Positions 29,426 through 46,235 of a stretch of 64,000 bases of DNA are shown piece after piece. Under the pieces are notes generated by a model. It had not been told where the DNA came from. It did not search any database and worked only from the letters and a program-made list of their open reading frames with translations. Position 1 is the first letter of the stretch, and the number at the start of each line of letters is the position of its first letter. This DNA is from Hoeflea sp. IMCC20628. Lineage in GTDB: Bacteria; Pseudomonadota; Alphaproteobacteria; Rhizobiales; Rhizobiaceae. Where the stretch lies: the NCBI RefSeq assembly GCF_001011155.1, contig NZ_CP011480.1, positions 1 to 64,000 on the forward strand, written 5' to 3'. A program made the position numbers and the translations under genes.

Positions 29426-30772
29426 CTATCCAGCTACCTGCAGCGACACCGTGGGAAGAACGACGGCCGCCTCAATACCACGTGTCTGGCCGACAATCGG
29501 CGAGGTAAGTTTAAACGTGCAATCCGCGCGATCTGCAATAGTGTGGACAATAGCCAATCCCAAACCGCTCCCCTCACCGGACCCTGATCCACGTTCAAAC
29601 CTTCGGGTCAATCGGGCGAGAATTTCTGGCTTGATCACCGGGCCGTCGTTCTCGATGGAAAGTTTCCCCGGTGCCGAAAGCCTGATCTTGACCAGCGAGC
29701 CCGGTGACCCGTGCTTGAGCGCGTTCTCAATCAGGTTACGGCACACTATGCCGAAGGCATCGGGATCGATGTCGGACATCACCGGATGCTCTGGCGAGAT
29801 GAAATCGATCTGGCTGCCCCATGGCGTCCGTTCGAAATCCGAAACGATCAGGCGCAACACCGTGCGCAGATCCTGAGGCTTGCCTGTGCGGAGCCGCCCG
29901 CCTTCAGCGCGGGCAAGCTGGATCAGTTTTTCCGACAGCCGCATGAGCCGTTTGAGCGTTGTCTCGATGTCAGCGGCGCGATTTGCAGCGACAGGGTCGG
30001 ATGTTTCGCTTTGCAGTCTCTGCGCCTGGGCTATGGCACCCGCCACCGGGGTGCGCAGCTCGTGGGCGGCATTGGCGGCGAAGCTGCGTTCAGCCTCGAA
30101 GGCTGCGTTCAGCCGTGCGAGAAGCTCGTTCGTTGCCACCGCGATGGGCGCAAGCTCGCTAGGCAAATCAAGATTGGAGGTTGGCGAGAGATCATGCGCG
30201 CCGCGGCTTGCGAGCGCGTTACGAAGCTGCCTGACCGGTCGGAAACTGAAGCCCACCGCACCGAAAATTGCTACCAGACAGAGCGGTATGACGGCCAGCA
30301 GTGGCAGACCGAGGCCAAGCTGCATCTCGCGCGCCATCAGCGCCCGGTGATCGAGCGGCTCGGCCACGGCAATGGTGATGGAATCCTGCAGCGCGGAATC
30401 ATAATACAGCCTGTGGGTGGCCGACTGTCGGAATCCGACGCCGTCATAGGGCGGAAACACCGATGGATCAGCGGCATGAGACGATATCAGCACGCGCCCC
30501 TGCGCATCGCGCACGATGTAGGTCAGAAACTCGCTGTGCTCCCTCAGGTTGGCGATACGCTGCGAAACACCTTCTTCTTCGCGGTCGATGATGTCGACAA
30601 CAGCAAGCGGAAGCAGCCTTTGTGCGGTCTCCTGCAAGGCGGAATCAAAAACTTCGTCCATTTCCTTGCTCAGTAGGGTCGCCGTCACCGTGGCAGCGAT
30701 GATCCAGAGTACGGTCACACCGAGGCCGATGAGAATCGCCAGCCTTGCCTGAAGTGAACGCGGCACCCTCAT
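29426..30772 (-). CDS. Two-component sensor histidine kinase (QseC/TctE-like)
   Basis: 448 residues. Two membrane helices (LAILIGLGVTVLWIIAATVTATLL near 12-35 and LGLPLLAVIPLCLVAIFGAVGF near 155) bracket a periplasmic sensor of about 120 residues, which carries no visible metal-binding motif. HAMP is followed by the H-box AANAAHELRTPVAG, N-box CRNLIENALKHG and G-boxes GSGSGEGSGLGLAIV. It should phosphorylate the regulator encoded immediately upstream (4-bp overlap). The stimulus is probably envelope redox state or a cation, judged only from the divergent electron-transfer genes. Confidence 0.9.
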   Translation of the reverse strand: MRVPRSLQARLAILIGLGVTVLWIIAATVTATLLSKEMDEVFDSALQETAQRLLPLAVVDIIDREEEGVSQRIANLREHSEFLTYIVRDAQGRVLISSHAADPSVFPPYDGVGFRQSATHRLYYDSALQDSITIAVAEPLDHRALMAREMQLGLGLPLLAVIPLCLVAIFGAVGFSFRPVRQLRNALASRGAHDLSPTSNLDLPSELAPIAVATNELLARLNAAFEAERSFAANAAHELRTPVAGAIAQAQRLQSETSDPVAANRAADIETTLKRLMRLSEKLIQLARAEGGRLRTGKPQDLRTVLRLIVSDFERTPWGSQIDFISPEHPVMSDIDPDAFGIVCRNLIENALKHGSPGSLVKIRLSAPGKLSIENDGPVIKPEILARLTRRFERGSGSGEGSGLGLAIVHTIADRADCTFKLTSPIVGQTRGIEAAVVLPTVSLQVAG

Positions 30773-31428
30773 GCGGTTCCCAGCCGGTAGCCGAGGCCCC
30801 GTTCCGTCTCGATCACCTTGTGGCCAAGCTTCTTGCGCAAGCGGCTCACATGCACCTCGATCGCATTGCTGTCGATTTCAGTATCGAAGGAATAGAGCCG
30901 TTCCTCAAGCTGCGCCTTGGACAGAAGCTGCCCTGGACGCTGCACGAAGGCTTCGAAAAGCACCCATTCACGCGCAGTCAGTGGCACCATGCGGCCATCC
31001 TTGCGCAGGCTGCGGGCGGCGAGATCAATCTCGAGGTCGCCGAGTTTGATGATAGGGTTTGGATTGCCCGAGTATCGGCGCGCGACCGATCCGATGCGGG
31101 CGGACAGCTCGGCAAGGTCAAAGGGCTTAACCAGATAATCATCCGCGCCGGCGTTCAATCCCTCGATCCGGTCGGAGACCTGGTCAAGCGCCGTCAGAAT
31201 GATAACCGGGGTGACGTCACCCTTGGCGCGGAAGGCCCTTAGAAACGGAATGCCCAGCCCGTCGGGCAGCATTAGGTCAAGCAACACGAGGTCGTAGGCC
31301 GCAACGGCGACGGCGTCTCTTGCCTCGTCAAGCCGTTTGGCCCAATCCAGCGAATGGCCGTCAGCCGCGATCTGGTCACGCACGGCCGAACCCAGAACCA
31401 TGTCGTCTTCAATGAGGAGTATGCGCAT
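30769..31428 (-). CDS. OmpR-family response regulator
   Basis: 219 residues from the ATG at 31428 (MRILLIEDDMVLG). Receiver: acidic pair ED in IEDD, phospho-acceptor Asp in DLVLLDLMLPDGLG, Thr in PVIILTALD, Lys in YLVKPFDLAEL. C-terminal winged helix: LTAREWVLFEAFVQRPGQLLSKAQLEERLY, then SNAIEVHVSRLRKKLG. It should bind paired direct repeats with 11-bp periodicity, which is the structure of the box seen at 31471, 31902 and 32431. Confidence 0.92.
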   Translation of the reverse strand: MRILLIEDDMVLGSAVRDQIAADGHSLDWAKRLDEARDAVAVAAYDLVLLDLMLPDGLGIPFLRAFRAKGDVTPVIILTALDQVSDRIEGLNAGADDYLVKPFDLAELSARIGSVARRYSGNPNPIIKLGDLEIDLAARSLRKDGRMVPLTAREWVLFEAFVQRPGQLLSKAQLEERLYSFDTEIDSNAIEVHVSRLRKKLGHKVIETERGLGYRLGTA

Positions 31429-31470
31429 GCTGTTCGCCCGTGTTGTTCGTGCACTGTCTCGCATTGCCAA

Positions 31471-31490
31471 CTGACGGCAAACTGAAGCGC
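31471..31490. promoter_or_regulatory. Response-regulator box 1
   Basis: CTGACGGCAAACTGAAGC, in the divergent region between the regulator and the PepSY gene. It contains two CTGA half-sites 11 bp apart, the spacing of OmpR-family dimers. Near-identical boxes lie upstream of two further genes. Here it may serve autoregulation as well as the PepSY gene. Confidence 0.6.
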
Positions 31491-31569
31491 CCTGCTGGTC
31501 ATGTTCAGCCAGCCGTCAGCTTCAGGGCGCAGATCACACTTCAAATGTTTACTACAGGGAGTATGGGGT

Positions 31570-31845
31570 ATGAGAAAGTCACTGGCCATTCTGTTTCTTT
31601 TCGCAACTCTCGGTGCCACGGGTCTGGCCCGGGCCGACGAGGATGATTGCACCGTGCCGATGGCGCAATGGCAGCCGCGTGAAGCAGTTCAACGCGTCGC
31701 CGCCGAGCAGGGCGTCACCGTTCGCAGGATCAAGATTGATGACGGCTGCTACCAGATCAATGGTCGCGACGCGTCAGGACGGAAAGTCGAGATCAAGGTC
31801 AATCCGCAGACATTGGAAGTCATTGACATCGAATATGACGATTGA
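31570..31845 (+). CDS. Small PepSY-domain exported protein
   Basis: 91 residues from the ATG at 31570 behind GGGAG. Signal peptide MRKSLAILFLFATLGATGLARA-D. The mature part is one PepSY domain (PREAVQRVAAEQGVTVRRIKIDDGCYQINGRDASGRKVEIKVNP, ending with TLEVIDIEYDD). It is periplasmic. Such proteins often accompany PepSY-type membrane reductases and two-component systems. It is divergent from the regulator, with a response-regulator box about 80 bp upstream. Confidence 0.85.
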   Translation: MRKSLAILFLFATLGATGLARADEDDCTVPMAQWQPREAVQRVAAEQGVTVRRIKIDDGCYQINGRDASGRKVEIKVNPQTLEVIDIEYDD

Positions 31846-31901
31846 GGGTGTGAGAAGTGCTGGCACCTTTGCGCCGCACTCCTTGATCCGCGGGTTGGTT
31901 C

Positions 31902-31927
31902 CTGACGCCAAGCTGAAGCAAATAGTT
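31902..31927. promoter_or_regulatory. Response-regulator box 2
   Basis: CTGACGCCAAGCTGAAGC followed by AAATAGTT, about 70 bp upstream of the Asp-rich protein gene. It has two CTGA half-sites 11 bp apart. It shares the same downstream AAAT(A/T)GTT with box 3, which suggests one regulator and one promoter layout. Confidence 0.6.
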
Positions 31928-31997
31928 CTGAGACGTCAGTAAACGATAAGGCTCAGGGGTGAGGTTCCAGGTGTCGATCAAATCAAAGGAGACACCC

Positions 31998-32336
31998 ATG
32001 AAGACCACACTTGCCATCCTGACTGCAACCACGGCGCTCGCCGCTTTCCTAGCGATGCCTGCGGTCGGCGCGGTCCATTCCGTTTGGACCGGCGATTCCG
32101 GCCAGTTCACCGGGATGCACCACGCGTCATCGAAGGTCACAAGCTTCCTGCTCGCCAGCAATGACGACGATGATTACAAATCCAAAGCCGGTTACCGCTC
32201 GGATCACGATGGCGAAGATGACGATGACGATGATGACGGCCAGGCAAGTGCAAGTCCTGCCCCTGCCGGTTCCGTAGCGCCTCCTGCCAATGGCCTGTTT
32301 GATACCGGCGCAGGGTCCAAAGTTCAGGTGAACTGA
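31998..32336 (+). CDS. Asp-rich exported protein
   Basis: 112 residues from the ATG at 31998 behind AAAGGAGA. A signal peptide (about 25 residues, ending AVGA) is followed by short acidic tracts: NDDDDYKSK and DHDGEDDDDDDDGQ. The rest is Ser/Ala/Pro-rich linker. No catalytic domain. The acidic runs could bind Ca2+, Mg2+ or other cations. It stands between the PepSY and DUF2271 genes with its own box upstream and a terminator downstream, so it is probably a separate member of the same regulon. Confidence 0.75.
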   Translation: MKTTLAILTATTALAAFLAMPAVGAVHSVWTGDSGQFTGMHHASSKVTSFLLASNDDDDYKSKAGYRSDHDGEDDDDDDDGQASASPAPAGSVAPPANGLFDTGAGSKVQVN

Positions 32337-32430: not shown

Positions 32431-32456
32431 CTGACGGCAAGCTGAAGCAAATTGTT
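32431..32456. promoter_or_regulatory. Response-regulator box 3
   Basis: CTGACGGCAAGCTGAAGC followed by AAATTGTT, about 70 bp upstream of the DUF2271 gene start. It is nearly identical to box 2, including the half-site repeat CTGA with 11-bp spacing. It should drive the DUF2271 / PepSY-reductase / ApbE operon. Confidence 0.6.
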
Positions 32457-32524
32457 GTGGTTGTTAAGGAAGGCATCAGGCGCACGGCCCATTGAAGCTG
32501 CACCTGATCAACCCGTGGAGAAAA

Positions 32525-32998
32525 ATGATGAAATCAATCCTGGCTGCACTGGCCATCACCACCGCGCTGACACTTCCCGCGACCGCCTGGGCAAGACCGG
32601 TCACCATCGACACAACGCTGAAAAACTACAGTGGCAACGGCGCCTATCTGGCTGTCTATGTGACCGATGCCAACGGTGTCTACAAAGGCAGCCTCTGGAT
32701 GGCTGGTGGCAAGTCGAAATATTATCAGCATCTGAGCGACTGGCAGCGCGCCACTGGCGGAAGCCTGTCCGAAATCAACGGAATCACCGGTGCCAGTGTC
32801 GGGTCTGGCCGCAAACTTTCGATCACGCTCAACCTCGCAGACGCGCTCTTTGATGCCGGCTACCAGGTGCATGTCGATGCCGCCGTAGAAGACATGCGCG
32901 AAAGCCCCTCCGAAGTGGTCGTGCCGCTCACGACCGCTGGCACCGGCAAGGCAACACCGGGCCGCCGATATATCGAGTCATTTTCTTACAACATGTGA
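32525..32998 (+). CDS. DUF2271 exported protein, candidate flavinylated protein
   Basis: 157 residues from the ATG at 32525 (or 32528) behind GGAGAA. Signal peptide ends ATAWA-R. The DUF2271 body has YLAVYVTDANGVYKGSLWMAGG, YYQHLSDWQRAT and NGITGASVGSGRKLSITL. The T88-G-A-S91 segment resembles the S/T-G-A-T/S motif to which ApbE links FMN in flavinylated proteins, so Ser91 is the candidate site. It is first of an operon with a membrane flavin reductase and ApbE. A role as periplasmic FMN electron carrier follows from family knowledge and context and is not proven here. Confidence 0.82.
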   Translation: MMKSILAALAITTALTLPATAWARPVTIDTTLKNYSGNGAYLAVYVTDANGVYKGSLWMAGGKSKYYQHLSDWQRATGGSLSEINGITGASVGSGRKLSITLNLADALFDAGYQVHVDAAVEDMRESPSEVVVPLTTAGTGKATPGRRYIESFSYNM

Positions 32999-33009
32999 GA
33001 GCAACAAGC

Positions 33010-35220
33010 ATGATCCGCTCCCTACACAGATGGCCCGGCCTCATCGCCGCCGCCCTTCTTCTTGTCCTCAGCCTTTCCGGCGCCGGGCTGTCGGTTTTTC
33101 CGGCACTCGAGACCGTGACAGTGCCTGCACAGACGGAGGTCGGTCTCAGTATCGCTGACCTGACAGCGCGGGTTCTGGTCACTCATCCGGGGGTCGAGCA
33201 GATCAAGCGTGCCCCCTCGGGGCGGATCACTGCCTACTGGTTTGACAACGGCACGCCTGGGGCTGCCGTCGTCGACCCGGTGACCGGTCTCGATGCCGGT
33301 TCCGCCGACGCATCTCCCGTAGAGCGGTGGCTGAAAACGCTGCATCGCTCGTTGTTTCTCGATGATTCAGGGCGAATTGTGGCCGCCATTGGCGCCGCCG
33401 CCATGCTCGTTCTTTCGATTTCCGGTACAGCACTCGTTGTCCGCCGCACAGGCGGCTGGCGCCGGGTGTTCACGTCCCTGAAAGGGCCGCTGCCGGGTCG
33501 GTTGCACGTCGAGATCGCCCGTTTTTCAATCGTCGGACTTTTGCTGTCATCGGTGACCGCCTTGTGGATGACCGCCTCGACATTCGGCTATCTGCCTGAA
33601 AGCAATGTAACGCCTCCGATTCCGGATACGGTCAGCGGTGAGAGCGGGTTCTCGGTAGTACACATGCAGGCTCTGCGCACCACGCCGCTGGCTTCGTTGA
33701 GGGAACTGACGTTTCCATATCCTGATGATCCAACCGACGTCTTCACGCTGAAAACCGATGCCGGACAGGGCTATATCGATCAGGGAACCGGTGCGCTTCT
33801 GGCCTGGGTCGAACCCGGCATGTGGGACCGGATATCGGAAACCATTTACATGCTTCACACCGGCCAGGGTGCCGCGACACTCGGCCTTCTGCTTGGACTG
33901 ATGGCGCTCGGAGTCCCATTGATGGCGGTGACCGGAATTATCGTATGGATTGCAGGGCGGCGCGCCCGGCCGAAGCTGCGCGGTAACGTGGCGGCAGGTC
34001 ATGCTGACACGGTCCTGCTCGTGGGCAGCGAGGGCGGCAATGTCTGGGGCTTTGCGGCAACGCTGCAGGCGGCTCTGACAGCAGCAGGTCAAAAGGTTCA
34101 TGCGGCGCCGATGTCGGCATTCGCGCCTGATCGTTACACAAATGCTGAACGTATCATCGTTCTCGCCTCGACCTATGGCGATGGCGTAGCGCCGGCCTCG
34201 GCGAAGGGGTTTCTTGATCGCCTTGCTGCCTTGCCCACGCCTCCGGCCATGCCGCTCGCTATCCTGGGTTTTGGCGACCGCAGCTTTCCGGATTTTTGCG
34301 GTTTCGCAAAGCAGGTGGCCTGCGCCGCCGAAGCAAAGGGCTGGACCGCTTTTCTGCCGATGGACACCGTAAACCGGCAGTCTCCGCAAGATTTCGCCCG
34401 TTGGGGCCATTTGCTCGGTGCAGCGATGGACCTGCCTCTGGAACTCGATCACCAGCCAGTGGCACCCCGGACATCCGCATTCACGCTGATTTCGCGTCGC
34501 GACTACGGCGCCGAGGTGCAGGCGCCGATGGCAATCCTGCGCTTCGCCTTGCCGCATATCCCCGTTTGGCGTCGGATAACCGGGCTCGGCGTCTCCCGTT
34601 TCGCTGCAGGAGATCTGATCGGAATTGTGCCTGAGGGATCACCGTCGCCGCGTTTTTATTCGCTGGCCTCTGGTGCCAAGGACGGCTTTGTAGAAATCTG
34701 CGTGCGCAAGCATCCCGGCGGCCTGTGTTCGGGACAACTTCTCGCACTAAACCCAGGGGCCGCTATTCATGGCTTCATTCGTCCCAATCCGGGGTTCAGG
34801 CCGGCGCGTGGCAAAAAGCCGGTTATCCTGATCGGTGCTGGTACCGGTATCGGTCCGCTGGTTGGATTTGCGCGGGCGAACACGCGGCGTCAGCCTATGC
34901 ACTTGTGGTTTGGCGCCCGCCATCCCGACAATGATCTTCTCTATCGCCCTGAGCTTATCGACTGGCACACAGATGGAAGGCTCACTTCGGTCGCGGCAGC
35001 CTTTTCCCGGACAGAAACCCGCACCTATGTGCAGGACATTCTGCGCCGTGACCGGGCCCGGGTCGCACGGCTGATCGCCAATGGCGCACAGGTTCTGGTC
35101 TGTGGTGGACGCGATATGGCAGCAGGCGTCGCCGAAGCAATGACCGACATCTTGGCTTCACAGGGCCTGACCCCTGCAATGCTGAAATCGGAGGGACGAT
35201 ATGCCGAAGACGTTTACTGA
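33010..35220 (+). CDS. PepSY transmembrane / flavodoxin / FAD-NAD(P)H reductase fusion
   Basis: 736 residues. The N-terminal half is a PepSY membrane module: SLHRWPGLIAAALLLVLSLSG, LKTLHRSLFLDD, then helices near 130, 180 and 290 with a conserved LHTGQ. A flavodoxin domain follows from about 335 (VLLVGSEGGNVWGFA, STYGDG, LGFGDRSFPDFCGF), then the FAD domain (RFYSLAS near 547, GLCSGQL) and the NAD(P)H domain (LIGAGTGIGPLVGFA near 610, FGARHPDNDLLY). Electrons should run from NAD(P)H through FAD and FMN to membrane heme or flavin and out to a periplasmic acceptor. ATG at 33010 preferred; a GTG at 32995 overlaps the previous stop. Confidence 0.88.
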   Translation: MIRSLHRWPGLIAAALLLVLSLSGAGLSVFPALETVTVPAQTEVGLSIADLTARVLVTHPGVEQIKRAPSGRITAYWFDNGTPGAAVVDPVTGLDAGSADASPVERWLKTLHRSLFLDDSGRIVAAIGAAAMLVLSISGTALVVRRTGGWRRVFTSLKGPLPGRLHVEIARFSIVGLLLSSVTALWMTASTFGYLPESNVTPPIPDTVSGESGFSVVHMQALRTTPLASLRELTFPYPDDPTDVFTLKTDAGQGYIDQGTGALLAWVEPGMWDRISETIYMLHTGQGAATLGLLLGLMALGVPLMAVTGIIVWIAGRRARPKLRGNVAAGHADTVLLVGSEGGNVWGFAATLQAALTAAGQKVHAAPMSAFAPDRYTNAERIIVLASTYGDGVAPASAKGFLDRLAALPTPPAMPLAILGFGDRSFPDFCGFAKQVACAAEAKGWTAFLPMDTVNRQSPQDFARWGHLLGAAMDLPLELDHQPVAPRTSAFTLISRRDYGAEVQAPMAILRFALPHIPVWRRITGLGVSRFAAGDLIGIVPEGSPSPRFYSLASGAKDGFVEICVRKHPGGLCSGQLLALNPGAAIHGFIRPNPGFRPARGKKPVILIGAGTGIGPLVGFARANTRRQPMHLWFGARHPDNDLLYRPELIDWHTDGRLTSVAAAFSRTETRTYVQDILRRDRARVARLIANGAQVLVCGGRDMAAGVAEAMTDILASQGLTPAMLKSEGRYAEDVY

Positions 35221-36166
35221 TCTCAAGCGCCACGTGCTCAATGGCGAGACCATGGGTACCCGCTGGTCCGCGTTGTTTCATAAGCCAGTCGATTTTGATG
35301 TGGTCCCGGTTGCCGCAGCCATGGCGGCTGCCGTGACCGAGGTGGATCAGCAGATGTCCACCTGGAAGCCCGACAGCGATCTGATGCGGTTGAACTCCGC
35401 GCTACCGGGTGTCTGGGTCCATTGTCCCGAACATCTGATGATCGTACTGGAAATGGCGGTTTCGATTGGTCGGGCTTCGGGCGGCGCCTTCGACATTGGC
35501 GTGGGCGATGCGGTTTCGGCCTGGGGCTTTGGCTCTGCCACGGCAGATCCTGCCCGTATTCAGGCAGCCCTATCTGAAGCCCGACGCCCGACACATGATG
35601 TGCTCGAACTCGATATGTCCGGACGGCGAGTGCGAAAAAGCGCTTCGGTGACGCTGGACCTGTCAGGGATTGCAAAGGGCTACGGCGTGGACCGCCTGAC
35701 AGATGTGGCGAGGAGATTCCACATTTCGGACGCGCTGCTCTCGATCGACGGCGAACTGCGCGGGATCGGACTCCAGCCCGATAATACTCCCTGGGCGATC
35801 GCAATTGAGGACCCGGACTACGCGGCGCGTAAACCATTGACTATTGTGACCCTGCACGATGCCGCTGTTGCCACCTCGGGTGACTACCGGCATTGGATCG
35901 ACGTCGGCCCAAAACGATTGTCCCACACCATGGATCCGGGGCGAGGCGGGCCGTTGGCGCAGTCGCCCGCTTCGGTCACGGTCATTGCCGAAACCTGCAT
36001 GGCTGCCGATGCCTGGGCAACCGCGCTTATAGTGAAAGGCAGCTCGGAAGGGGCAGAATTGGCCCGTCAAATGGGCTTAAACGCCCTGTTTGTCGAGCGC
36101 GAAGGCAATCGTCTGCGTCAAACAGCCGTCGGCTCGCTTTTTAATTCCGGTTCGGTAGAAATGTAG
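35201..36166 (+). CDS. apbE: FAD:protein FMN transferase (ApbE)
   Basis: 321 residues. Motifs: NGETMGTRW at the start, DQQMSTWKPDSDLMRLN, ASVTLDLSGIAKGYGVD, SIDGELRGIG, HTMDPGRGGPL and the Mg-binding ETCMAADAWATALI. The enzyme moves FMN from FAD to Ser/Thr of target proteins. The start overlaps the reductase gene by 20 bp, so they are co-transcribed. Unlike most ApbE proteins it shows no signal peptide or lipobox, so it may act in the cytosol before export, or its N-terminus may be misassigned. The obvious target is the DUF2271 protein. Confidence 0.92.
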   Translation: MPKTFTDLKRHVLNGETMGTRWSALFHKPVDFDVVPVAAAMAAAVTEVDQQMSTWKPDSDLMRLNSALPGVWVHCPEHLMIVLEMAVSIGRASGGAFDIGVGDAVSAWGFGSATADPARIQAALSEARRPTHDVLELDMSGRRVRKSASVTLDLSGIAKGYGVDRLTDVARRFHISDALLSIDGELRGIGLQPDNTPWAIAIEDPDYAARKPLTIVTLHDAAVATSGDYRHWIDVGPKRLSHTMDPGRGGPLAQSPASVTVIAETCMAADAWATALIVKGSSEGAELARQMGLNALFVEREGNRLRQTAVGSLFNSGSVEM

Positions 36167-36795: not shown

Positions 36796-37788
36796 ATGCA
36801 GGACGATTCCATAGCCGCTAATGGGTGCAAGACGCCGCGCGTCTTGGTGTGTATCGATTTGGCAAAGGAAACGCAGGAAATCATTCCACCCGCCAAGGCT
36901 ATTGCCAGGGCATTGAGTGCCGAACTGGCCTTTGTCCATGTCATCAAGGCGCACGGTCGCGCCGAGAACGGATCACCCATTGATCCGGTTGAATGGGAGA
37001 TCATGCGCCGTGAGGCCAAAGCCCATATGGAACGGTTTGCTCAAGAGCACGCAGACGGTGACGAAATGCCGACCACGCACGTGCTCGAGGGAAACTGCAC
37101 CGACCAGATATGCGATGTGATGGCCAGCAGGCCACAGGATATTGCTGTACTCGGACGGGAGCATGACGAAACAGGCGCGCATATTGGCGAAACGGCGCGT
37201 GAGATGCTGGAAAGCGGAACCAATTCTCTTTTTCTGGTGCCGCTTGGTGTCGAGCCAAAGCAGAAGTTTTCCAGAATCCTCGTACCTCTCGACTGCTCGA
37301 GGCGATCAGAACGCATCATACCGTTGGTCGAAAAGATCGCCCGGTCAGAAAATGCCGAGGTCGTGCTAGTCCATGCGGTACCGGAGCCTGGTCTCACCGA
37401 CGCAGGGCTTGGCGAGCCCAACGACAAAGAGCTGATTTCCCAGTTCAACAAGCGCAATGAACGTGTCGCCAAGAAGTATCTCGATCATCTGTCTGGACGC
37501 ATTCGCACGGGCGGAGTGCGTGTCAGAAGTCTGGTTCTCAGCGGCGGCGACGTCCGTCGTCAATTGGCTGCTGCAATCGGGGAGCAGGCGATAGACCTTC
37601 TGGTTCTGGCCTCGCATGGACAGAGCGGTTTCGCCGATGTGCCATTCGGCGATGTAGCCAACTACCTGATCAAAAGTTCGAACGTTCCGACCATGGTCAT
37701 TCGGTTTGGCGGAAATGCCACCGAGAAGCATGCCTTTTCGGAGGCCCGGTCGAAAGGCGCTCGCAGTCCCGGTACGCTGGCACAATGA
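36796..37788 (+). CDS. Tandem universal stress protein (UspA family)
   Basis: 330 residues with two Usp domains, about 15-145 and 155-310. Each opens with RVLVCIDLA or RILVPLDCS. The second ends with the ATP-binding pattern ASHGQSGFADVPFGDVANYLIKSS; the first is more degenerate (GREHDETGAHIGETAREMLES). AAGGAGG lies just upstream. The stop overlaps the ndvB start (ATGA), which couples it to glucan synthesis. A stress or osmotic signal feeding into glucan production is a reasonable inference. Confidence 0.88.
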   Translation: MQDDSIAANGCKTPRVLVCIDLAKETQEIIPPAKAIARALSAELAFVHVIKAHGRAENGSPIDPVEWEIMRREAKAHMERFAQEHADGDEMPTTHVLEGNCTDQICDVMASRPQDIAVLGREHDETGAHIGETAREMLESGTNSLFLVPLGVEPKQKFSRILVPLDCSRRSERIIPLVEKIARSENAEVVLVHAVPEPGLTDAGLGEPNDKELISQFNKRNERVAKKYLDHLSGRIRTGGVRVRSLVLSGGDVRRQLAAAIGEQAIDLLVLASHGQSGFADVPFGDVANYLIKSSNVPTMVIRFGGNATEKHAFSEARSKGARSPGTLAQ

Positions 37789-40700
37789 TACAGGAAGAAC
37801 CACAGTCTCAACCCGATCCTCTGGTTCTGGAGGCCCACGCTCTGGCCAAGTCCGCCAGATATGGGCCGCCACCGCCAATGCCGCTTGATCTCCTGCAAAA
37901 GATCGATGCGCTTCCGGACTGGCTGGAAAACCTCAGGCGCTTCTGCGCAGAGCCCAAGCCCGATCAGGCCCGTGCCGCTGACTGGTTGCTCGATAATGAT
38001 TACCAGATTTCACGGGCCATCCGCGAAGTAGATCACGATATGCCTGCTGCATTTTACAACCGGCTGCATGTCATGGCAGATGGCGGATCTGCGCTTCCGC
38101 GCATCTTCAGGATCGCATATGCGATCCTCACAGCCACGCGGTTTCAGCTCTCCGTTCCAAGTCTCGTCGATTTTCTCGTCGCATACCAGAAAACCGTACC
38201 GCTGACGACGGCTGAACTCTGGGCGCTGCCCTCGATGTTGCGCATTGCCGGTCTGGAAATACTGGCGAACGGCTTCAAAACGCTTGACGAGAGCCTCGAA
38301 CCGCCATTCGAACTCAGTCGTTTCGCTGCCGAGAACCTGCCACTGGATCCAACTGGCTGTATATCCCAGGCGATCACCGCGATCATCGCGGTACGCGGGA
38401 TTGAATGGCGCGATGTTGTCGACAAGACCAGCATGTCAGAGGCACTGTTGCGCTCGGATCCCGCCAATGTTTACGCACGGATGGATTTCGAGACACGCGA
38501 CAGGTACCGGCAGGCTGTTGAAATGCTCAGCACCGGCTCGGGCATGGACGAAATCGCGATTATTGAAGCCGCCCTCGACCTTGCACGCGCAGCGCCCGAT
38601 GATCCCCGCCGCTTTCATGTGGGATACTGGCTGATTGATGACGGCCGCCCGGAGCTTGAACGCAAACTGGGCTTTCGTGTTTCCATTCGTGAACGGTTCC
38701 GCCGTTTGGCTTTGCGACATGCTGGCAAGACCTACGCGACCACTCTTGCGGTCTTTGTGGCGCTGGCGTTGGTGTGGCCTTTGCTGCTTATCGCCGGAAC
38801 GGGGGGCGGCCTGCTGGCGCAAACAGGGGGCTTGCTGTTGTCGTTGCTGCCAGCAACGCTTCTCAGTGTTACAGTCCTGCACTGGCTCATAACGCGCATC
38901 GCGCAGCCTCGCCTTCTTCCAATGATGGATTTCCGCAAGAAAATTCCCGAGGACTGTCCGACCTGCGTGGTGGTGCCGGTTATCATTAAACACGCCGAAG
39001 AGATCGCCGACATCGTCGAACGGCTGGAAATCCGTTACCTTTCCAACCGCGATCCGATGCTCAGCTTTGTTCTGCTTTCTGACTATGCTGACGCGCCAAC
39101 CGAGCACCTTCCGCAAGATGAAGACATCAGAAAAGCGCTGATTGACGTGATCCGGACGCTGAATGTGCGTTACGCCGATGAAAGGGGCGATTCATTTTTC
39201 TTGCTGCATCGGTCTCGCCAGTACAATCCATCGGAAAACTGCTGGATGGGATGGGAAAGAAAGCGCGGCAAGCTGGAGCAGTTCAATGCATTCCTTTTCG
39301 ATGGGAATGCAGATGCGTTCGAATGCCATGAAGGTGAGATCAGCCGGCTGCAAGATACGCGTTTTGTGATCACGCTCGATGCGGACACCACCCTGTCTCC
39401 AGGCTCAGCAGCCAAGTTGATTGGCACGCTCGCGCATCCGTTGAACCAGGCAGTGATCGATCCCCATACAGGCAAGGTTGTCTCCGGATACGCCATTGTC
39501 CAACCAAGAATCGAGATCTTGCCGATCAAGGGGCCTGCCACGCTGTTCTGCCGTCTCTATGCCGGCGATACGGCAATTGACATTTATTCCCGAGCTGTCT
39601 CGGACGTCTATCAGGATCTGTTCGGTACAGGAATTTTTGTCGGCAAAGGCATCTATGATGTTGCGGCTTTCAGAAAGAGCCTTGCCGGCCGTGTGCCGGA
39701 AAACACTGTGCTCAGTCACGATCTTTTCGAAGGACTTTACGGACGTACGGCGCTGGCAACCAATATTGTCCTCTATGAGGAATTTCCCGCGACCTATACC
39801 GAATATTCAGTCCGCCAGCACCGGTGGACCCGCGGCGACTGGCAGCTATTACCCTGGCTTGGGCGCAAGGTGCCAAGTGCGGACGGACAATCGGTTCCCA
39901 ATGTTCTCTCCAGCCTCGACCGCTGGAAGATCATCGACAATCTTCGCCGCAGCCTGATTCCGCCGGCGCTACTTCTTTTCTTCGTTGCCGGGTGGCTGCT
40001 GCTGCCGGGCAGTGCCTGGGTGTGGACGGCGTTGGCAACACTGGCACCAGGCACCTACCTCATCGGCCAATTGCAATCGATCGTCATGGGTGATCCGCGG
40101 CGGGGATTTTTTGACGATCTCGCATTCCGGTTCGGAGAACGCTTCGGCCGCTGGTTTCTCGCAATTGTCTTCCTGGTCAGCAATACGCTGATTTCGCTCG
40201 ATGCGATCGGGCGAACACTCTGGCGACTGGGTGTGAGAAGGGGCCGCTTGCTGGAATGGCGGTCTGCCGCACACGCAAGGTCTCTGCTCGGGAACGGCAG
40301 TTTGCGACTTAACACCTGGCGCATGATGTGGCCATCGACCGCTGTTGCCGCGCTACTTGCCGTGGATCTGGCGATTTACAAGGCGTCGGCTCTGCCGTCG
40401 GCGGCGCCGATCTTGGTGCTTTGGATACTCGCGCCGGAGATCGCGGTATGGATCGGCAAACCGCGCAAGTTTCGTCAGGAAACCTTGCACGACCGCGACC
40501 GAACCTTTCTCAGGCACATCGCCCGTCGTACCTGGTTGTTTTTCGAGACCTTTGCAGGCCCCGAGGACAACTGGCTACCGCCGGATAATTTTCAGGAAAC
40601 ACCAAAGAGCGAAATCGCTCATCGGACTTCGCCGACCAATATCGGGCTGTATCTAGTCTCGGCAAACGCCGCGCTTGATTTCGGTTTCGTGGGGAGTTCC

Positions 40701-43700
40701 GATTTCGCAGTCCGTGTCCGCAACGCGATTGCAACGACCGAGAGGTTGGAATCCTATCGCGGCCATATCCTAAATTGGTTTGACACACGCAGCTTGACGC
40801 CGCTTGAACCGCGCTATGTCTCGACCGTCGACAGTGGCAATCTCGCTGTCAGCCTGATCGCGTTACGCAAGGGATGTCACGAAGCTGCAGAAGCGCCGGC
40901 AGTCAGCAAAGTGGTGTGGGATGGCCTGAAAAGCACTTTTGAATTGCTCTTCGAATCCGTCCGGGCGCTGCCGACGTCCAATCTGAGTGCCATCGACCGA
41001 TGCGAAGCAGAAATTGAACGCGAGCTGGATCGTGTAAGTGGCTTGGACACGAACTCGTACACCTCTCTCAAGCTTCTCGCAGATACGCACTGGCCTGCTC
41101 TCGAACGGTCGGTCGCTGAATGCATTTCTGCTTCCCCTGATGCAACCGACAAGCGTCTTGGCGAAGTTCATGCCTGGCTTGAGCGCACCCACCATCATAT
41201 CCGGGCATTGACGCGCGAGGTTGAAACTCTTCTGCCTTGGTGCGCTGCGGCAGCGGAGACACCGCAAGGAATGGAAAAGGTTGGCAGGGATCTGCTTGCC
41301 GTGCTGTCGCCGTTGATGCCGATGACAGAGCTTGCAGAACATAAACAGCGTGCCATCTCGCTTCTCGAAAAAGCTGATGCGGACGAAACTTTGAGCAAGG
41401 TTCACCGCGACTGGCTTGAGCAGGCAGGTGTCGCGATCGAGAGCGGTATCGGGGCGCAGCAGGCCCTTCGCGCAGACTTGCTGGATCTCGCCTCACGATG
41501 CGAGGCAATCGCCTACCGCATGGATTTCACGTTTCTCTACGATCCCGAAGCGCGATTGTTCCGGATTGGCTACAATGTCAGCACCGGCCAGCTCGATGCC
41601 AATCATTATGATCTTCTGGCGACCGAAGCTCGCATCGCCAGCTACTTCGCTATCGCCAAGCACGACGTACCGATCGAACACTGGTTCGCGCTTGGACGAC
41701 CCGTCACGCGCCTCAAGAACCGTCCGGTAGTGTTGTCCTGGAACGGCTCGATGTTTGAATACCTCATGCCGCCGATATTCTTGCCCGGCCAGCGGGATAC
41801 CTTGTTGGGCGAGAGCGAGTTGGCGGCGGTTGCATTCCAGCGCGCCTATTCGCGCGAGCGCGGCGTGCCGTGGGGAATATCGGAATCGGCATTTGCCACC
41901 ACGGATTCGGCAGGCAACTACCAGTATCGCGCTTTTGGCGTTCCCGGGCTCGGGCTGCGCCGTGGCCTGACAGATGACCTGGTAATTGCACCCTATGCCA
42001 GCGCCTTGGCATTGTGCTGCTGGCCCGGTGCTGCCGTGAAAAACATGCGGCATCTGCAAGAACTCGGGGCCGTCGGTCTCTACGGTTTCCATGACGCAAT
42101 CGACTATACGCCAAGCCGGGTAGCGGAGGGGAGGAGCTTCAGCATCGTCGGCAACTACATGGCGCACCACCACGGCATGACCATGGCCGCGATCGCCAAC
42201 GCACTTTATGGCGATATCTTTGTGCGCCGGACGTTGTCGGGACGACGGATGCAAACGGTCGAACAGCTGCTGCTAGAACGTGTGCCTTGGGATGCGCCGA
42301 TTGAAAAGGGGCGCCTCGATGAGGAGCTGCTTGCGGCCAAGAAGGAACACGTGGTGCAGGCGCTTCCTTCCTGGGTGCCATCACGTCGGGCCATGGTGCC
42401 GCAGATGCAGATGCTCGGCAATGGGCGGATGGCGTCGTGGATAACGGCGTCCGGAGCTGGCGGTTTGATGCTGGCCGACACCAGTCTGACCCGCTGGCGG
42501 CCTGATGCCACCAGCGACGGCTTCGGCTATTGGATCTACATCCGTGACACGCAGAACGGCGATTTCTGGTCGGCAGGGCGGTTGCCGACCGGTGTGACAA
42601 GTCCGGATTCGACGGTCATATTCCATCAGCACATGATCGAATTCTTTCAGCGGACCAACGGCATTGCCGTACGCATGGAGGTGTCGGTATCGCCCGCTGA
42701 CGATGCCGACATTCGCGAGATTTCAGTCACCAATGAAAGCGGCAGACCGCGCGTGATCGAGTTCACCAGCTACGCGGAAGTAGTTCTGGCTCCGCCGCTC
42801 GACGATGAACGCCACCCCGCTTTCAGCAAGCTCTTCGTGGAGAGTGACTATCTCGGGCCGCAGAAGGGCCTGTTGTTCACACGCCGGCCGCGACGGCCGG
42901 AAATGAAACCTCCGGTTCTGCTGCACACGCTGGTGAGCGACGGCCCGGACATCGCCATTACTGGCCACGAAACCGACCGGGCGCGCTTTATTGGACGTCT
43001 GGGCAACCAGCGCCGGCCGGCGGGACTAGACGCCGGATTGAGCGGAACGGTGGGATCCACGCTCGATCCGGTGATGAGCCTGCAAACGGAGGTTACTCTC
43101 AAGCCGGGGGAAACCAGGCGCTTTGCATTTGTCACGGTCGCTGGAACCGCGCGCGGCGAAGTGCTCGACATCGCCCAACGTCATGCGATGGGGACCCTCG
43201 AACAGGTCAAGCGTGATGCCGGCCGGGCAATGGCACGTGAGGTCGACCGTCTGGGTATCGCGCCGGCGCGCTTGCCGGAGCTGCAGGTGCTTGCATCGCT
43301 CCTGCAGACGCCACACCCGAATTTCCGCGAGACGCCTGCTGAAATCGACGGCAACGATGCGCGCCAGCCGGATCTGTGGCAATTCGGTATTTCCGGCGAC
43401 CATCCCATTCTGCTGTTGCGCATCACCGGCGAGACACCCTCGCAACTGCTCGAGCTGCTGGTCAAAGCACAAAACCTGTGGCTGCGAAGCGCCATGCGGT
43501 GTGATCTGGTGGTGCTGCGCAGCGAGCCGGCGGGCTATGAAGCTCCGCTGCGCGAGCGGATCATGGCAATTTTGCGCGAAACCGGGACATACGCCAATCT
43601 GGGGGCGGCCGGTGGCATTCACCTGCTCAGCACTGCTGCCATGACACCGGCAACTCTTCAGCGTCTGGCCGCTGCGGCAACGGTTATCCTCAATGATGAT

Positions 43701-46235
43701 GATGTCGAGCTAGCGAGCAAGCTCGACCAGGTTCTGGAGCGCCGCGCCGTGCCGACGCAGTTCATGCCGGTCGACGCGATCAGCTATCCCGAAATTCCAC
43801 AAATCCCCCGGCCGGATGAGCTCATCTTCGACAACGAAATCGGCGGTTTCGATCCGGAAAACAGCGATTACGTCATCCATCTCGGCGCAGGGGAGAAAAC
43901 GCCGGCACCCTGGTGCAATGTAATCGCCAATGAGGCGTTCGGCACCATCGTCAGTGAAGCCGGACTCGGTTTCACCTGGGCTCTCAACAGCGGCGAAAAT
44001 CGGGTAACGCCATGGTCAAACGACCCAGTCAGCGACACGCCCGGAGAAGTCCTCTACCTGCGCGACGAACAGGATGGCGCGGTGTGGACGCCAACACCTG
44101 CGCCGCTGGGAAGCGACAGCGCCTGTCAGGTTCGCCACGGCGCGGGATGGACAGAATGGAGGCGCAACAGCCGCGGTCTCGAGCAGACCATTCGGACATT
44201 CGTACCGAATGATGATCCCGTGAAAATTGTCACCTTGAAACTGGTCAACCGCACCGGTGCCGTCCGGCGTATCACGGCGACATATTATGCAGAATGGCTG
44301 CTGGGTGCGATGGCGAGCCGCACCAAACCCTTCACCACCTGTGTATATGACACTGAAAGCCATGCCATCCTGGCCGAAAACGGATGGAACCCTGAATTTG
44401 CCGGTCGCGTCGCCTTTCTGACGGCCAGCCTGCCAGCGCACAGCGTCACCGGCAGCCGCAATGATTTTCTTGGCAGTGAGGGGGATGTCGCTGACCCCGC
44501 GGGATTGCGGCATTGGGATCTCGGCGGACGCTTTGCGCCGGGCGGCGATGCCTGCGCGGCCTATCAGGTGCATCTCGATATCGATCCAGGTGCGACCAGC
44601 GAAGTCACCTTCATACTGGGGCAGGGCGCGAGCTACGCCGAGACGCTCGCACTGGTGAAGAAGTGGCGTGTGCCAGCGCAGGCCACTCAGGCCTTGGCCG
44701 ATGTTGAAGCCCTTTGGGACAAGCGCCTCAACGCGGTAGAGGTCAAGACGCCTGATGCGGCGTTCGACCTGATGGTGAACCGCTGGCTGCTGTACCAGAC
44801 AATCGCTTCGCGGCTATTGGCACGCGCCGGGTTTTATCAGGCGGGCGGTGCTTTTGGCTATCGAGACCAGCTTCAGGATGTGCTCGCGGTACTGGTGAGT
44901 GAGCCAAAGCGGGCTCGCGCCCAGATCCTGCTTGCCGCTGCGCATCAGTTCGAGGATGGAGATGCCCAGCATTGGTGGCATCCGCCGTTGGGACGTGGCG
45001 TGCGCACGCGCTGCTCGGATGACTTCATCTGGCTCGCCTTCGTCACAGCCCGCTACATCGAGGTGACCGGTGACAACAAGATCCTGACCGAAGCTGTGCC
45101 GTTCCTCAAGGCGGAGCTGCTGAAAGAGGAGGAACAGGACCGTTATGCGCTTTTTGATGCCGGGGTGACGGCCACGCTGCTTGACCATTGCAAGCGCGCG
45201 CTCGACAGGATGAGGAGCACCGGTTCGCATGGATTGCCGCTTATTGGCACCGGTGACTGGAATGACGGCATGGACCGGGTTGGCGACGAGGGGCGCGGTG
45301 AAAGCGTTTGGCTGGCATGGTTCCAGATCGCAACGATCAAGCGCTTCGTGCCGATTCTGGAAGCACATGGCGACCAGCACCACGCGGCGGAGCTGAAAAC
45401 CTACGCCGAAAGCCTTGCAAAAGCCGTTGAGGCCAGCGCTTGGGACGGCAACTGGTATGTCCGGGCCTTTGATGATGAAGGCATGCCCTGGGGCTCGCAT
45501 GAGAACGACGAATGCCAGATCGACTCCATCGCGCAATCCTGGTCGGTTATCTCGGGTGCCGCACCGGAGGACCGGGCGCGGGCTGCAATGGCCTCGGCCA
45601 GGTCACGATTGGTGCATCAGGATATACGGCTGGTGCAGCTGCTTGATCCGCCGTTCCATGTCACCGCGCGCAATCCTGGCTATATTCGGGCCTATCCGCC
45701 TGGTATCCGCGAAAACGGCGGGCAATACACCCATTCGGCCGCGTGGTTCGGGCATGCCCTGGCCGGGCTCGGCGACGGCGATGGGGCCTGGCAGGTGTTC
45801 GATATCATCAACCCTGTTCGCCGCACCCGGAGCAACAGCGGCGCACTCCACTATGAGCGCGAGCCCTATGTGCTGCCGGGTGATGTTTATGGCCCGGGAC
45901 AAAATCTCGGGCTTGGTGGCTGGTCCTGGTACACAGGTGCGGCTGGCTGGACCTGGCAGCTCGGCGTCGAGGCCATCCTTGGTCTGCGGATCATGAACGG
46001 GCGCCTGGCGATTGAGCCGTGCCTGCCGCGTGACTGGGGAGGGTTTACGGCTACAATCCGCACCGGGAAGGGCAGCATCGAGGTGACGGTGGAAGACCCC
46101 GACAGGCTAGGTCACGGAGACCTGGAGCTTTCCGTTGATGGCCGATCACGCAAGACGCTAGCCCCGATCCCGTTCCCGGGCGCTGGCAAAACCCGGAAGG
46201 TCAGGGCAAGGTTGTGTCAGAGGAAACGGTTCTGA
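37785..46235 (+). CDS. ndvB: Cyclic beta-1,2-glucan synthase
   Basis: 2816 residues, normal length. N-terminal helical region, membrane helices near 320-370, a GT84 glycosyltransferase at about 385-600 with VITLDADTTL and QHRWTRGDWQ, then helices near 730-890. Next come the glucoamylase-like domain (about 1240-1490: GLRRGLTDDLVIAPYASALAL, GLYGFHDAIDYTPSR, GNYMAHHHGMT), two GH94-type beta-sandwiches and the GH94 (alpha/alpha)6 domain (about 2345-2770: AFGYRDQLQD, IGTGDWNDGMDRVG). The single inner-membrane protein initiates, elongates, trims and cyclises glucans used in osmoadaptation and host contact. The last codons and stop lie inside the end of the IS6 element. Confidence 0.95.
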   Translation: MIQEEPQSQPDPLVLEAHALAKSARYGPPPPMPLDLLQKIDALPDWLENLRRFCAEPKPDQARAADWLLDNDYQISRAIREVDHDMPAAFYNRLHVMADGGSALPRIFRIAYAILTATRFQLSVPSLVDFLVAYQKTVPLTTAELWALPSMLRIAGLEILANGFKTLDESLEPPFELSRFAAENLPLDPTGCISQAITAIIAVRGIEWRDVVDKTSMSEALLRSDPANVYARMDFETRDRYRQAVEMLSTGSGMDEIAIIEAALDLARAAPDDPRRFHVGYWLIDDGRPELERKLGFRVSIRERFRRLALRHAGKTYATTLAVFVALALVWPLLLIAGTGGGLLAQTGGLLLSLLPATLLSVTVLHWLITRIAQPRLLPMMDFRKKIPEDCPTCVVVPVIIKHAEEIADIVERLEIRYLSNRDPMLSFVLLSDYADAPTEHLPQDEDIRKALIDVIRTLNVRYADERGDSFFLLHRSRQYNPSENCWMGWERKRGKLEQFNAFLFDGNADAFECHEGEISRLQDTRFVITLDADTTLSPGSAAKLIGTLAHPLNQAVIDPHTGKVVSGYAIVQPRIEILPIKGPATLFCRLYAGDTAIDIYSRAVSDVYQDLFGTGIFVGKGIYDVAAFRKSLAGRVPENTVLSHDLFEGLYGRTALATNIVLYEEFPATYTEYSVRQHRWTRGDWQLLPWLGRKVPSADGQSVPNVLSSLDRWKIIDNLRRSLIPPALLLFFVAGWLLLPGSAWVWTALATLAPGTYLIGQLQSIVMGDPRRGFFDDLAFRFGERFGRWFLAIVFLVSNTLISLDAIGRTLWRLGVRRGRLLEWRSAAHARSLLGNGSLRLNTWRMMWPSTAVAALLAVDLAIYKASALPSAAPILVLWILAPEIAVWIGKPRKFRQETLHDRDRTFLRHIARRTWLFFETFAGPEDNWLPPDNFQETPKSEIAHRTSPTNIGLYLVSANAALDFGFVGSSDFAVRVRNAIATTERLESYRGHILNWFDTRSLTPLEPRYVSTVDSGNLAVSLIALRKGCHEAAEAPAVSKVVWDGLKSTFELLFESVRALPTSNLSAIDRCEAEIERELDRVSGLDTNSYTSLKLLADTHWPALERSVAECISASPDATDKRLGEVHAWLERTHHHIRALTREVETLLPWCAAAAETPQGMEKVGRDLLAVLSPLMPMTELAEHKQRAISLLEKADADETLSKVHRDWLEQAGVAIESGIGAQQALRADLLDLASRCEAIAYRMDFTFLYDPEARLFRIGYNVSTGQLDANHYDLLATEARIASYFAIAKHDVPIEHWFALGRPVTRLKNRPVVLSWNGSMFEYLMPPIFLPGQRDTLLGESELAAVAFQRAYSRERGVPWGISESAFATTDSAGNYQYRAFGVPGLGLRRGLTDDLVIAPYASALALCCWPGAAVKNMRHLQELGAVGLYGFHDAIDYTPSRVAEGRSFSIVGNYMAHHHGMTMAAIANALYGDIFVRRTLSGRRMQTVEQLLLERVPWDAPIEKGRLDEELLAAKKEHVVQALPSWVPSRRAMVPQMQMLGNGRMASWITASGAGGLMLADTSLTRWRPDATSDGFGYWIYIRDTQNGDFWSAGRLPTGVTSPDSTVIFHQHMIEFFQRTNGIAVRMEVSVSPADDADIREISVTNESGRPRVIEFTSYAEVVLAPPLDDERHPAFSKLFVESDYLGPQKGLLFTRRPRRPEMKPPVLLHTLVSDGPDIAITGHETDRARFIGRLGNQRRPAGLDAGLSGTVGSTLDPVMSLQTEVTLKPGETRRFAFVTVAGTARGEVLDIAQRHAMGTLEQVKRDAGRAMAREVDRLGIAPARLPELQVLASLLQTPHPNFRETPAEIDGNDARQPDLWQFGISGDHPILLLRITGETPSQLLELLVKAQNLWLRSAMRCDLVVLRSEPAGYEAPLRERIMAILRETGTYANLGAAGGIHLLSTAAMTPATLQRLAAAATVILNDDDVELASKLDQVLERRAVPTQFMPVDAISYPEIPQIPRPDELIFDNEIGGFDPENSDYVIHLGAGEKTPAPWCNVIANEAFGTIVSEAGLGFTWALNSGENRVTPWSNDPVSDTPGEVLYLRDEQDGAVWTPTPAPLGSDSACQVRHGAGWTEWRRNSRGLEQTIRTFVPNDDPVKIVTLKLVNRTGAVRRITATYYAEWLLGAMASRTKPFTTCVYDTESHAILAENGWNPEFAGRVAFLTASLPAHSVTGSRNDFLGSEGDVADPAGLRHWDLGGRFAPGGDACAAYQVHLDIDPGATSEVTFILGQGASYAETLALVKKWRVPAQATQALADVEALWDKRLNAVEVKTPDAAFDLMVNRWLLYQTIASRLLARAGFYQAGGAFGYRDQLQDVLAVLVSEPKRARAQILLAAAHQFEDGDAQHWWHPPLGRGVRTRCSDDFIWLAFVTARYIEVTGDNKILTEAVPFLKAELLKEEEQDRYALFDAGVTATLLDHCKRALDRMRSTGSHGLPLIGTGDWNDGMDRVGDEGRGESVWLAWFQIATIKRFVPILEAHGDQHHAAELKTYAESLAKAVEASAWDGNWYVRAFDDEGMPWGSHENDECQIDSIAQSWSVISGAAPEDRARAAMASARSRLVHQDIRLVQLLDPPFHVTARNPGYIRAYPPGIRENGGQYTHSAAWFGHALAGLGDGDGAWQVFDIINPVRRTRSNSGALHYEREPYVLPGDVYGPGQNLGLGGWSWYTGAAGWTWQLGVEAILGLRIMNGRLAIEPCLPRDWGGFTATIRTGKGSIEVTVEDPDRLGHGDLELSVDGRSRKTLAPIPFPGAGKTRKVRARLCQRKRF

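Follow-up and report, generated by a model that had tools for sequence, protein, structure and literature searches.

A 64,000-nucleotide stretch of the Hoeflea sp. IMCC20628 genome (contig NZ_CP011480.1, positions 1 to 64,000 of the forward strand; hereafter the window) carries a seven-gene module that, judging from its sequence, most likely encodes a flavin electron-export system of the PepSY/DUF2271/ApbE kind, which is already known. Its ApbE, a predicted flavin mononucleotide (FMN) transferase, bears no export signal and appears to stay in the cytosol, and its predicted target bears a Sec-type signal peptide; this pairing recurs in about 100 distinct loci. The explanation that best covers the whole locus, namely flavin electron export with cytosolic flavinylation, a two-component switch and a metal acceptor, strikes us as reasonably probable. 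The topology is the part that would matter, with the site at which an extracytosolic flavoprotein is flavinylated becoming directly testable. The core of the module consists of three genes:

32528 to 32998 (or from 32525 with the upstream ATG), forward strand: exported DUF2271 protein (Pfam DUF2271, PF10029, E 4.9e-34)
33010 to 35220, forward strand: fusion of PepSY_TM, flavodoxin, flavin adenine dinucleotide (FAD) and NAD(P)H domains, 736 residues (PepSY_TM, PF03929, E 9.8e-33; Flavodoxin_1, E 3.7e-11; NAD_binding_1, E 5.7e-11)
35201 to 36166, forward strand: leaderless ApbE, FAD:protein FMN transferase (PF02424, E 8.5e-74; Ser226-His242-Asp270)

Each of these genes lies where a preliminary description of this DNA had placed it, a description that called them overlapping or closely spaced; the Pfam matches confirm the identities it proposed, and apbE and the fusion gene overlap by 20 bases. 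A flavinylation cluster of this kind is recognized by a PepSY-like protein (PF03929 or PF16357) clustered with ApbE or DUF2271, and here PF03929, PF10029 and PF02424 are all matched. The interval named there, 32431-36166, does contain the three genes, but what begins at 32431 is a regulatory-type repeat and not a gene.

A leaderless ApbE and a Sec-exported target

By eye and by our own hydrophobicity rule, the N-terminus of DUF2271 is a Sec-type signal peptide, as is expected of the target in a PepSY flavinylation system. The protein has one [S/T]GA[S/T] site, TGAS at T87-S90 when numbered from the second of two ATGs, and FMN is predicted on Ser90 (codon 32795-32797). The export and the TGAS motif in the preliminary description are both borne out, and its Ser91 is right if the first ATG is the start and becomes Ser90 from the second. 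Among the seven module proteins, [ST]G[AP][ST] occurs in DUF2271 only, so that no other module protein qualifies as an ApbE target.

These features were followed across 167 loci, comprising the window, 19 loci from a family sample (DUF2271 in 19 of 151 genomes, own genome included), 67 from a phylum sample (70 of 398 genomes matched, 65 of them over the Pfam cut-off; ten places below it were left out) and 80 named loci, which lean to close relatives because they are the best 80 of 543. The one-protein fusion is present in 112 of these loci (fusion-type; 106 are distinct and six are duplicates) and absent from 55. Since loci were found through DUF2271, its presence beside the fusion is by construction and only the conservation of its motif counts. 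Signal-like N-termini were called throughout by our own rule rather than SignalP; as controls, this rule called 0/106 response regulators, 101/102 PepSY_2 homologues and 44/47 acidic proteins from the neighboring genes described below. The motif core is kept in all 112 fusion-type loci (TGAS in 109, SGAS in 3), and DUF2271 is signal-like in 106 of the 112 (100/106 distinct loci), with at least three of the six misses (L069, L070 and L080) resembling signal peptides by eye. Export of DUF2271 by the twin-arginine translocation (Tat) pathway was rejected on the absence of a twin arginine from 14 aligned leaders, the other leaders not having been checked singly. In some non-fusion loci, such as L099, L103 and L125, the DUF2271 motif is relaxed (SAAT, TSAT, SSAT) and the stretch surveyed contains no ApbE; some DUF2271 proteins may not be flavinylated.

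The operon ApbE lacks the export signal of a typical exported ApbE. An in-frame stop six codons ahead of its ATG closes the frame and the conserved MGT motif starts at residue 18, so that no signal peptide fits; the same stop rules out a leader missed through a wrong start. The distance from stop to MGT is at most 25 residues in 75 of 110 ApbE homologues, none of the 110 from fusion-type loci is signal-like (0/104 in distinct loci), and ApbE stands beside the fusion in 110/112 loci, with none in the stretch surveyed for L111 and L201. Ser226, His242 and Asp270 are each found in 109/110 fusion-type ApbEs with the spacing of the Vibrio 241/257/285 triad, as given in a 2025 review (PMC12052999), and the operon ApbE is catalytically complete by sequence. 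With a leaderless ApbE that appears to remain in the cytosol, the simple view in which enzyme and partner are both exported and meet outside does not hold. The host is able to export ApbE yet leaves this one untagged, since its remaining two ApbEs (L002 and L003, contig C1) carry the twin-arginine-like leaders TRRNFLV and SRRRFIG; they lie beside nqr- and nos-like genes, as judged by eye. In the 55 non-fusion loci, 7 of 35 ApbEs are signal-like and 28 are not. In four of the seven (L082, L090, L091 and L139), ApbE and DUF2271 form a single chain behind a common leader, and the DUF2271 motifs are degenerate (SGPT, TRPT, SRPT and ARET), all without GA.

We favor flavinylation before Sec export over flavinylation outside by a Tat-exported paralogue. 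In this tentative proposal, which falls a little short of an even chance, the leaderless ApbE would attach FMN to DUF2271 in the cytosol while the latter is still an unfolded Sec precursor, and the covalent FMN would be carried through SecYEG. The Sec channel lets chemically labelled preproteins pass. ApbE accepts a seven-residue motif, and short tags are good substrates, best at a terminus (PMC12052999), which makes an unfolded precursor a plausible substrate; together with the FAD at hand in the cytosol, this acceptance of a short motif favors cytosolic flavinylation. As part of the same reading, and held with similarly incomplete conviction, pre-export flavinylation may be used across alphaproteobacteria and probably beyond, since the 28 non-fusion ApbEs above also lack a signal. 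If true, such a route needs neither FAD export nor a periplasmic ApbE. According to the review, ApbE typically sits in the periplasm on a membrane anchor, and the excerpts considered name cytosolic ApbEs only with intracellular targets (PMC12052999), and we found no report of a leaderless ApbE paired with an exported target in the open-licence literature.

Alternatively, though we think it unlikely, DUF2271 receives its FMN only once it has reached the periplasm, from one of the Tat-exported ApbE paralogues, and the operon ApbE serves a different, cytosolic substrate or handles flavin. The two paralogues with twin-arginine-like leaders and the existence of single-chain ApbE-DUF2271 proteins with one leader are consistent with this. 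It fits poorly with an ApbE that accompanies the fusion in 110/112 loci, with a motif found in no other module protein, and with the four single-chain proteins themselves, in which DUF2271 may not be flavinylated because its motif is degenerate and without GA.

A two-component module sharing a direct repeat

Four upstream genes, at 29426-32336, are part of the same unit and went unmentioned in the preliminary description, which also overlooked the missing ApbE leader and an Asn in place of Asp in the FMN motif. These genes and the repeats among them are as follows:

29426 to 30772, reverse strand: sensor histidine kinase (Pfam domains 2CSK_N, HisKA and HATPase_c; homologue at the same place in most fusion-type loci)
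30769 to 31428, reverse strand: OmpR-type response regulator (nearest NCBIfam families PmrA and QseB, below cut-offs)
31471 to 31487, forward strand: direct repeat CTGAC-N6-CTGAAG, exact, 82 nucleotides before the PepSY_2 start codon
31503 to 31519, reverse strand: another copy of the repeat, with one mismatch, oriented toward the response regulator gene
31570 to 31845, forward strand: small exported PepSY_2 protein, 91 residues (Pfam PepSY_2, E 2.3e-26)
31902 to 31918, forward strand: direct repeat CTGAC-N6-CTGAAG, exact, 79 nucleotides before the start of the acidic protein at 31998
31998 to 32336, forward strand: unannotated secreted Asp-rich (acidic) protein with a conserved C-terminal tail (PPxNGLF...VQVN), no Pfam family
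32431 to 32447, forward strand: direct repeat CTGAC-N6-CTGAAG, exact, 80 nucleotides before the DUF2271 start

Kinase, regulator and PepSY_2 protein occur together in 93/106 distinct fusion-type loci, and the acidic protein or its tail in 85/106. An alignment of the acidic protein contains 20 of 23 requested sequences, that of the window among them, several rows being tail only; in some genomes this tail is fused to the PepSY_2 protein. A DbfQRS-like module has a small PepSY protein no more than four genes away from a kinase or regulator, as is the case here, and the PepSY_2 protein would be a DbfQ-like partner of the kinase. The kinase is nearest to the NCBIfam families QseC, heavy-metal sensor and PmrB, all below their cut-offs.

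The 5.12-Mb genome has five exact copies of the repeat, three of them at this locus. The other two (G000:C1:15794-15810, L220, and G000:C1:1070231-1070247, L221) apparently lie inside long open frames, and no link to a regulon beyond the locus was seen at them on inspection for open frames. Only exact copies were counted in the genome and the window, because one-mismatch copies in the genome barely exceed a reversed-pattern control (64+47 versus 45+47) and two-mismatch copies in the window are at chance (20 found, 15.6 expected). Across loci, where one mismatch was allowed within 260 bases and expectations came from mononucleotide shuffles, the repeat precedes PepSY_2 in 102/105 fusion-type loci on either strand (91 forward; 0.2 expected), a count that is partly by construction because the repeat was read off regulator-PepSY_2 intergenic sequences. 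It precedes the acidic protein in 53/90 (0.4 expected), this count and that of PepSY_2 sharing one promoter in loci where tail and PepSY_2 are joined, and DUF2271 in 37/112 (0.4 expected) and in 1/55 non-fusion loci. The response regulator may bind these repeats, and the flavin electron-export operon is probably under a two-component switch. The shared repeat and the two-component system offer a handle on the inducing signal and, through it, on the acceptor.

The locus probably lies on a repABC-type plasmid, since its contig of 154,071 bases has a RepC gene at 151101-151568 (RepC being the only such gene searched for); a second RepC lies on contig C3. The nearest named relatives are Hoeflea, with DUF2271 identities of 95 and 93%. 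Downstream of apbE are genes for a universal stress protein (36796-37788) and, next to it, a 2816-residue protein with GH94 domains (37785-46235), which we take to resemble a cyclic beta-glucan synthase.

Proposed electron path and acceptor

Structure models, each built with 33 of 81 sequences, give the fusion four transmembrane helices at 7-37, 118-147, 161-191 and 289-319 (predicted local distance difference test score, pLDDT, 84; predicted template modelling score, pTM, 0.58). His6, His112, His166 and His283 are invariant in 33/33 aligned fusions, and His6, His112 and His283 align opposite His of FoxB (7abw) in a profile of the transmembrane part (E 1.5e-5 overall). Judged by helix order, His6/His166 would lie at the inner face and His112/His283 at the outer face. 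FoxB is absent among the best 50 fold matches listed for the whole fusion model, a list filled by P450 reductase-type proteins. In sequence, the cytosolic half resembles cytochrome P450 reductase and CysJ, and its fold also matches P450 reductase, with FAD_binding_6 at 13.8 bits, below its cut-off of 21.1. Ser666-Arg667, invariant in 33/33 fusions, aligns to the SR of cytochrome P450 reductase, which binds the 2'-phosphate of reduced nicotinamide adenine dinucleotide phosphate (NADPH), so that NADPH is the likely electron donor.

In the mechanism we propose, cytosolic ApbE would take FMN from FAD and attach it to Ser90 while the DUF2271 precursor is unfolded; the precursor would then exit by Sec carrying its flavin. 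Electrons would pass from NADPH to FAD, to the FMN of the flavodoxin domain and to an inner heme b (His6/His166), then to an outer heme b (His112/His283) and the FMN on DUF2271, and finally to a periplasmic acceptor, most likely a metal in oxidized form, for example Fe(III). Upon an envelope or metal signal, the response regulator, bound to the repeats, would switch the set on, with the PepSY_2 protein tuning the two-component response. An outward route from NAD(P)H, as the preliminary description had it, is thus supported, and Ser666-Arg667 points to NADPH within it.

The DUF2271 branch of this path competes with a reading of the fusion as itself a metal or ferri-siderophore reductase like FoxB, with DUF2271 as a side branch and not the terminal carrier. 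The FoxB-like putative heme histidines agree with this, as does the fact that known PepSY_TM members are ferri-siderophore reductases (PMC13038864); we nevertheless rate it as quite unlikely, because the DUF2271 motif is kept beside every fusion (112/112, DUF2271 presence being by construction).

As acceptor we favor a metal, most likely Fe(III), because of neighboring VIT1 and heavy-metal ATPase genes and of Caulobacter genes linked to chelation stress. A VIT1 cluster was found in at least 12/112 fusion-type loci and a heavy-metal P-type ATPase cluster in at least 18/112, a good part of both directly after apbE; these are lower bounds because the stretches differ in length. Two examples of each cluster were checked against Pfam, and one for ATPase subfamily. 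Four of the 14 neighbor clusters listed were identified; the largest of the 14, with 79 loci, looked like a probable antisense frame on visual inspection and was left out. In Caulobacter, related, Fur-controlled PepSY/DUF2271 genes matter under chelation stress (PMC11870441), and iron reduction has been argued for PepSY flavinylation systems (PMC8238504). These Fur targets and the VIT1 neighbors speak against a somewhat unlikely alternative in which the acceptor is copper or a damaged envelope protein (an MsrPQ-like repair), not iron, and the two-component system senses envelope stress. That alternative draws on DbfQRS, which responds to outer-membrane stress and whose reporter is unresponsive to Fe(II) or Fe(III) (PMC12714742), on the link of CrpH, a PepSY_TM protein, to copper (PMC13038864), and on the resemblance of the kinase to QseC, metal sensors and PmrB.

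A number of points weigh against the explanation as a whole. The DUF2271 model is modest (pLDDT 74) and has no match to PDB folds at E<=0.001. The profile match of the fusion to FoxB 7abw is weak per domain (0.25 and 0.73), and the flavodoxin loop (SEGG) is unlike the FMN loop of P450 reductase. In 75/112 loci, the 260 bases before DUF2271 contain no copy of the repeat, even when one mismatch is allowed. No heavy-metal P-type ATPase was seen in 94/112 loci and no VIT1 in 100/112, in the stretch surveyed. DUF2271 matches are absent from two other genomes of the same genus, and the locus is therefore patchy. By sequence, no solved relative of DUF2271 was found, the one match being at E 0.87. At the position of Asp in D-x-x-[S/T]-G-A-[S/T], three before the first S/T, the window has Asn, a residue it shares with others to make 76 of the 112 fusion-type loci, whereas 25 have Asp and 11 have Ser; the review terms this Asp strictly conserved, reports only a minor effect of its change to Ala, and notes that Ser in place of Thr reduces flavinylation (PMC12052999). 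The same source states that in Salmonella a periplasmic ApbE is not replaceable by a cytosolic one (PMC12052999), and the open-licence literature yielded no case in which a protein modified by ApbE is exported through Sec.

Comparison with known systems

The preliminary interpretation is partly supported: it was partly right and is largely published. The proposed electron circuit is already in print, because earlier work covers PepSY, DUF2271 and ApbE, including PepSY joined to an NAD-binding domain (PMC8238504, eLife 2021). There, co-expression led to flavinylation of a DUF2271 protein from another species by its cognate ApbE at [S/T]GA[S/T] (Meheust 2021, PMC8238504), and 3220 PepSY flavinylation clusters were described, with DUF2271 in 2833 clusters. 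With 1077 PepSY genes carrying an NAD-binding domain (PMC8238504), and with the fusion in 12/67 of our loci drawn from the phylum, the notion that the one-protein fusion is unusual is rejected. A two-heme FoxB-like PepSY core has likewise been described (Huang et al. 2024, PMC11334425), and the Brucella ovis flavoproteome includes a related cluster in pieces, with ApbE (PMC9045290). The leaderless ApbE with its Sec-exported substrate and the two-component module are therefore the parts worth following.

The locus shares PepSY_TM, DUF2271 with [S/T]GA[S/T], ApbE and, for some PepSY proteins, the NAD-binding domain with the published PepSY flavinylation system (PMC8238504). It differs in a modelled four-helix PepSY_TM fused to a full diflavin reductase, in having no DUF4198 match among the seven module proteins, and in a dedicated two-component system and an acidic secreted protein; its ApbE is leaderless, whereas the tested A. 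ursilacus ApbE was expressed after removal of its signal peptide (PMC8238504). The fusion resembles FoxB (7abw) in transmembrane helices whose conserved His, putative heme ligands, would lie at either face, but the 7abw chain has 382 residues and no reductase fused to it, and FoxB, in the excerpts considered, is tied to siderophore iron and not to DUF2271 or ApbE.

As in the DbfQRS and BqsRS modules, a small exported PepSY protein stands beside a kinase and a regulator (PMC12714742). In DbfQRS of Vibrio cholerae the PepSY protein binds and controls its kinase, and Pseudomonas BqsS is iron-responsive, unlike the Vibrio reporter (PMC12714742). Here, in contrast, the module borders on a flavin electron-export operon, and the repeat is common to both; no tie between a DbfQRS-like module and flavinylation was found in the literature searched. 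The fumarate reductase ApbE of Klebsiella, finally, also lacks a signal peptide, but its target is cytosolic (PMC12052999), whereas the target here has a Sec-type signal.

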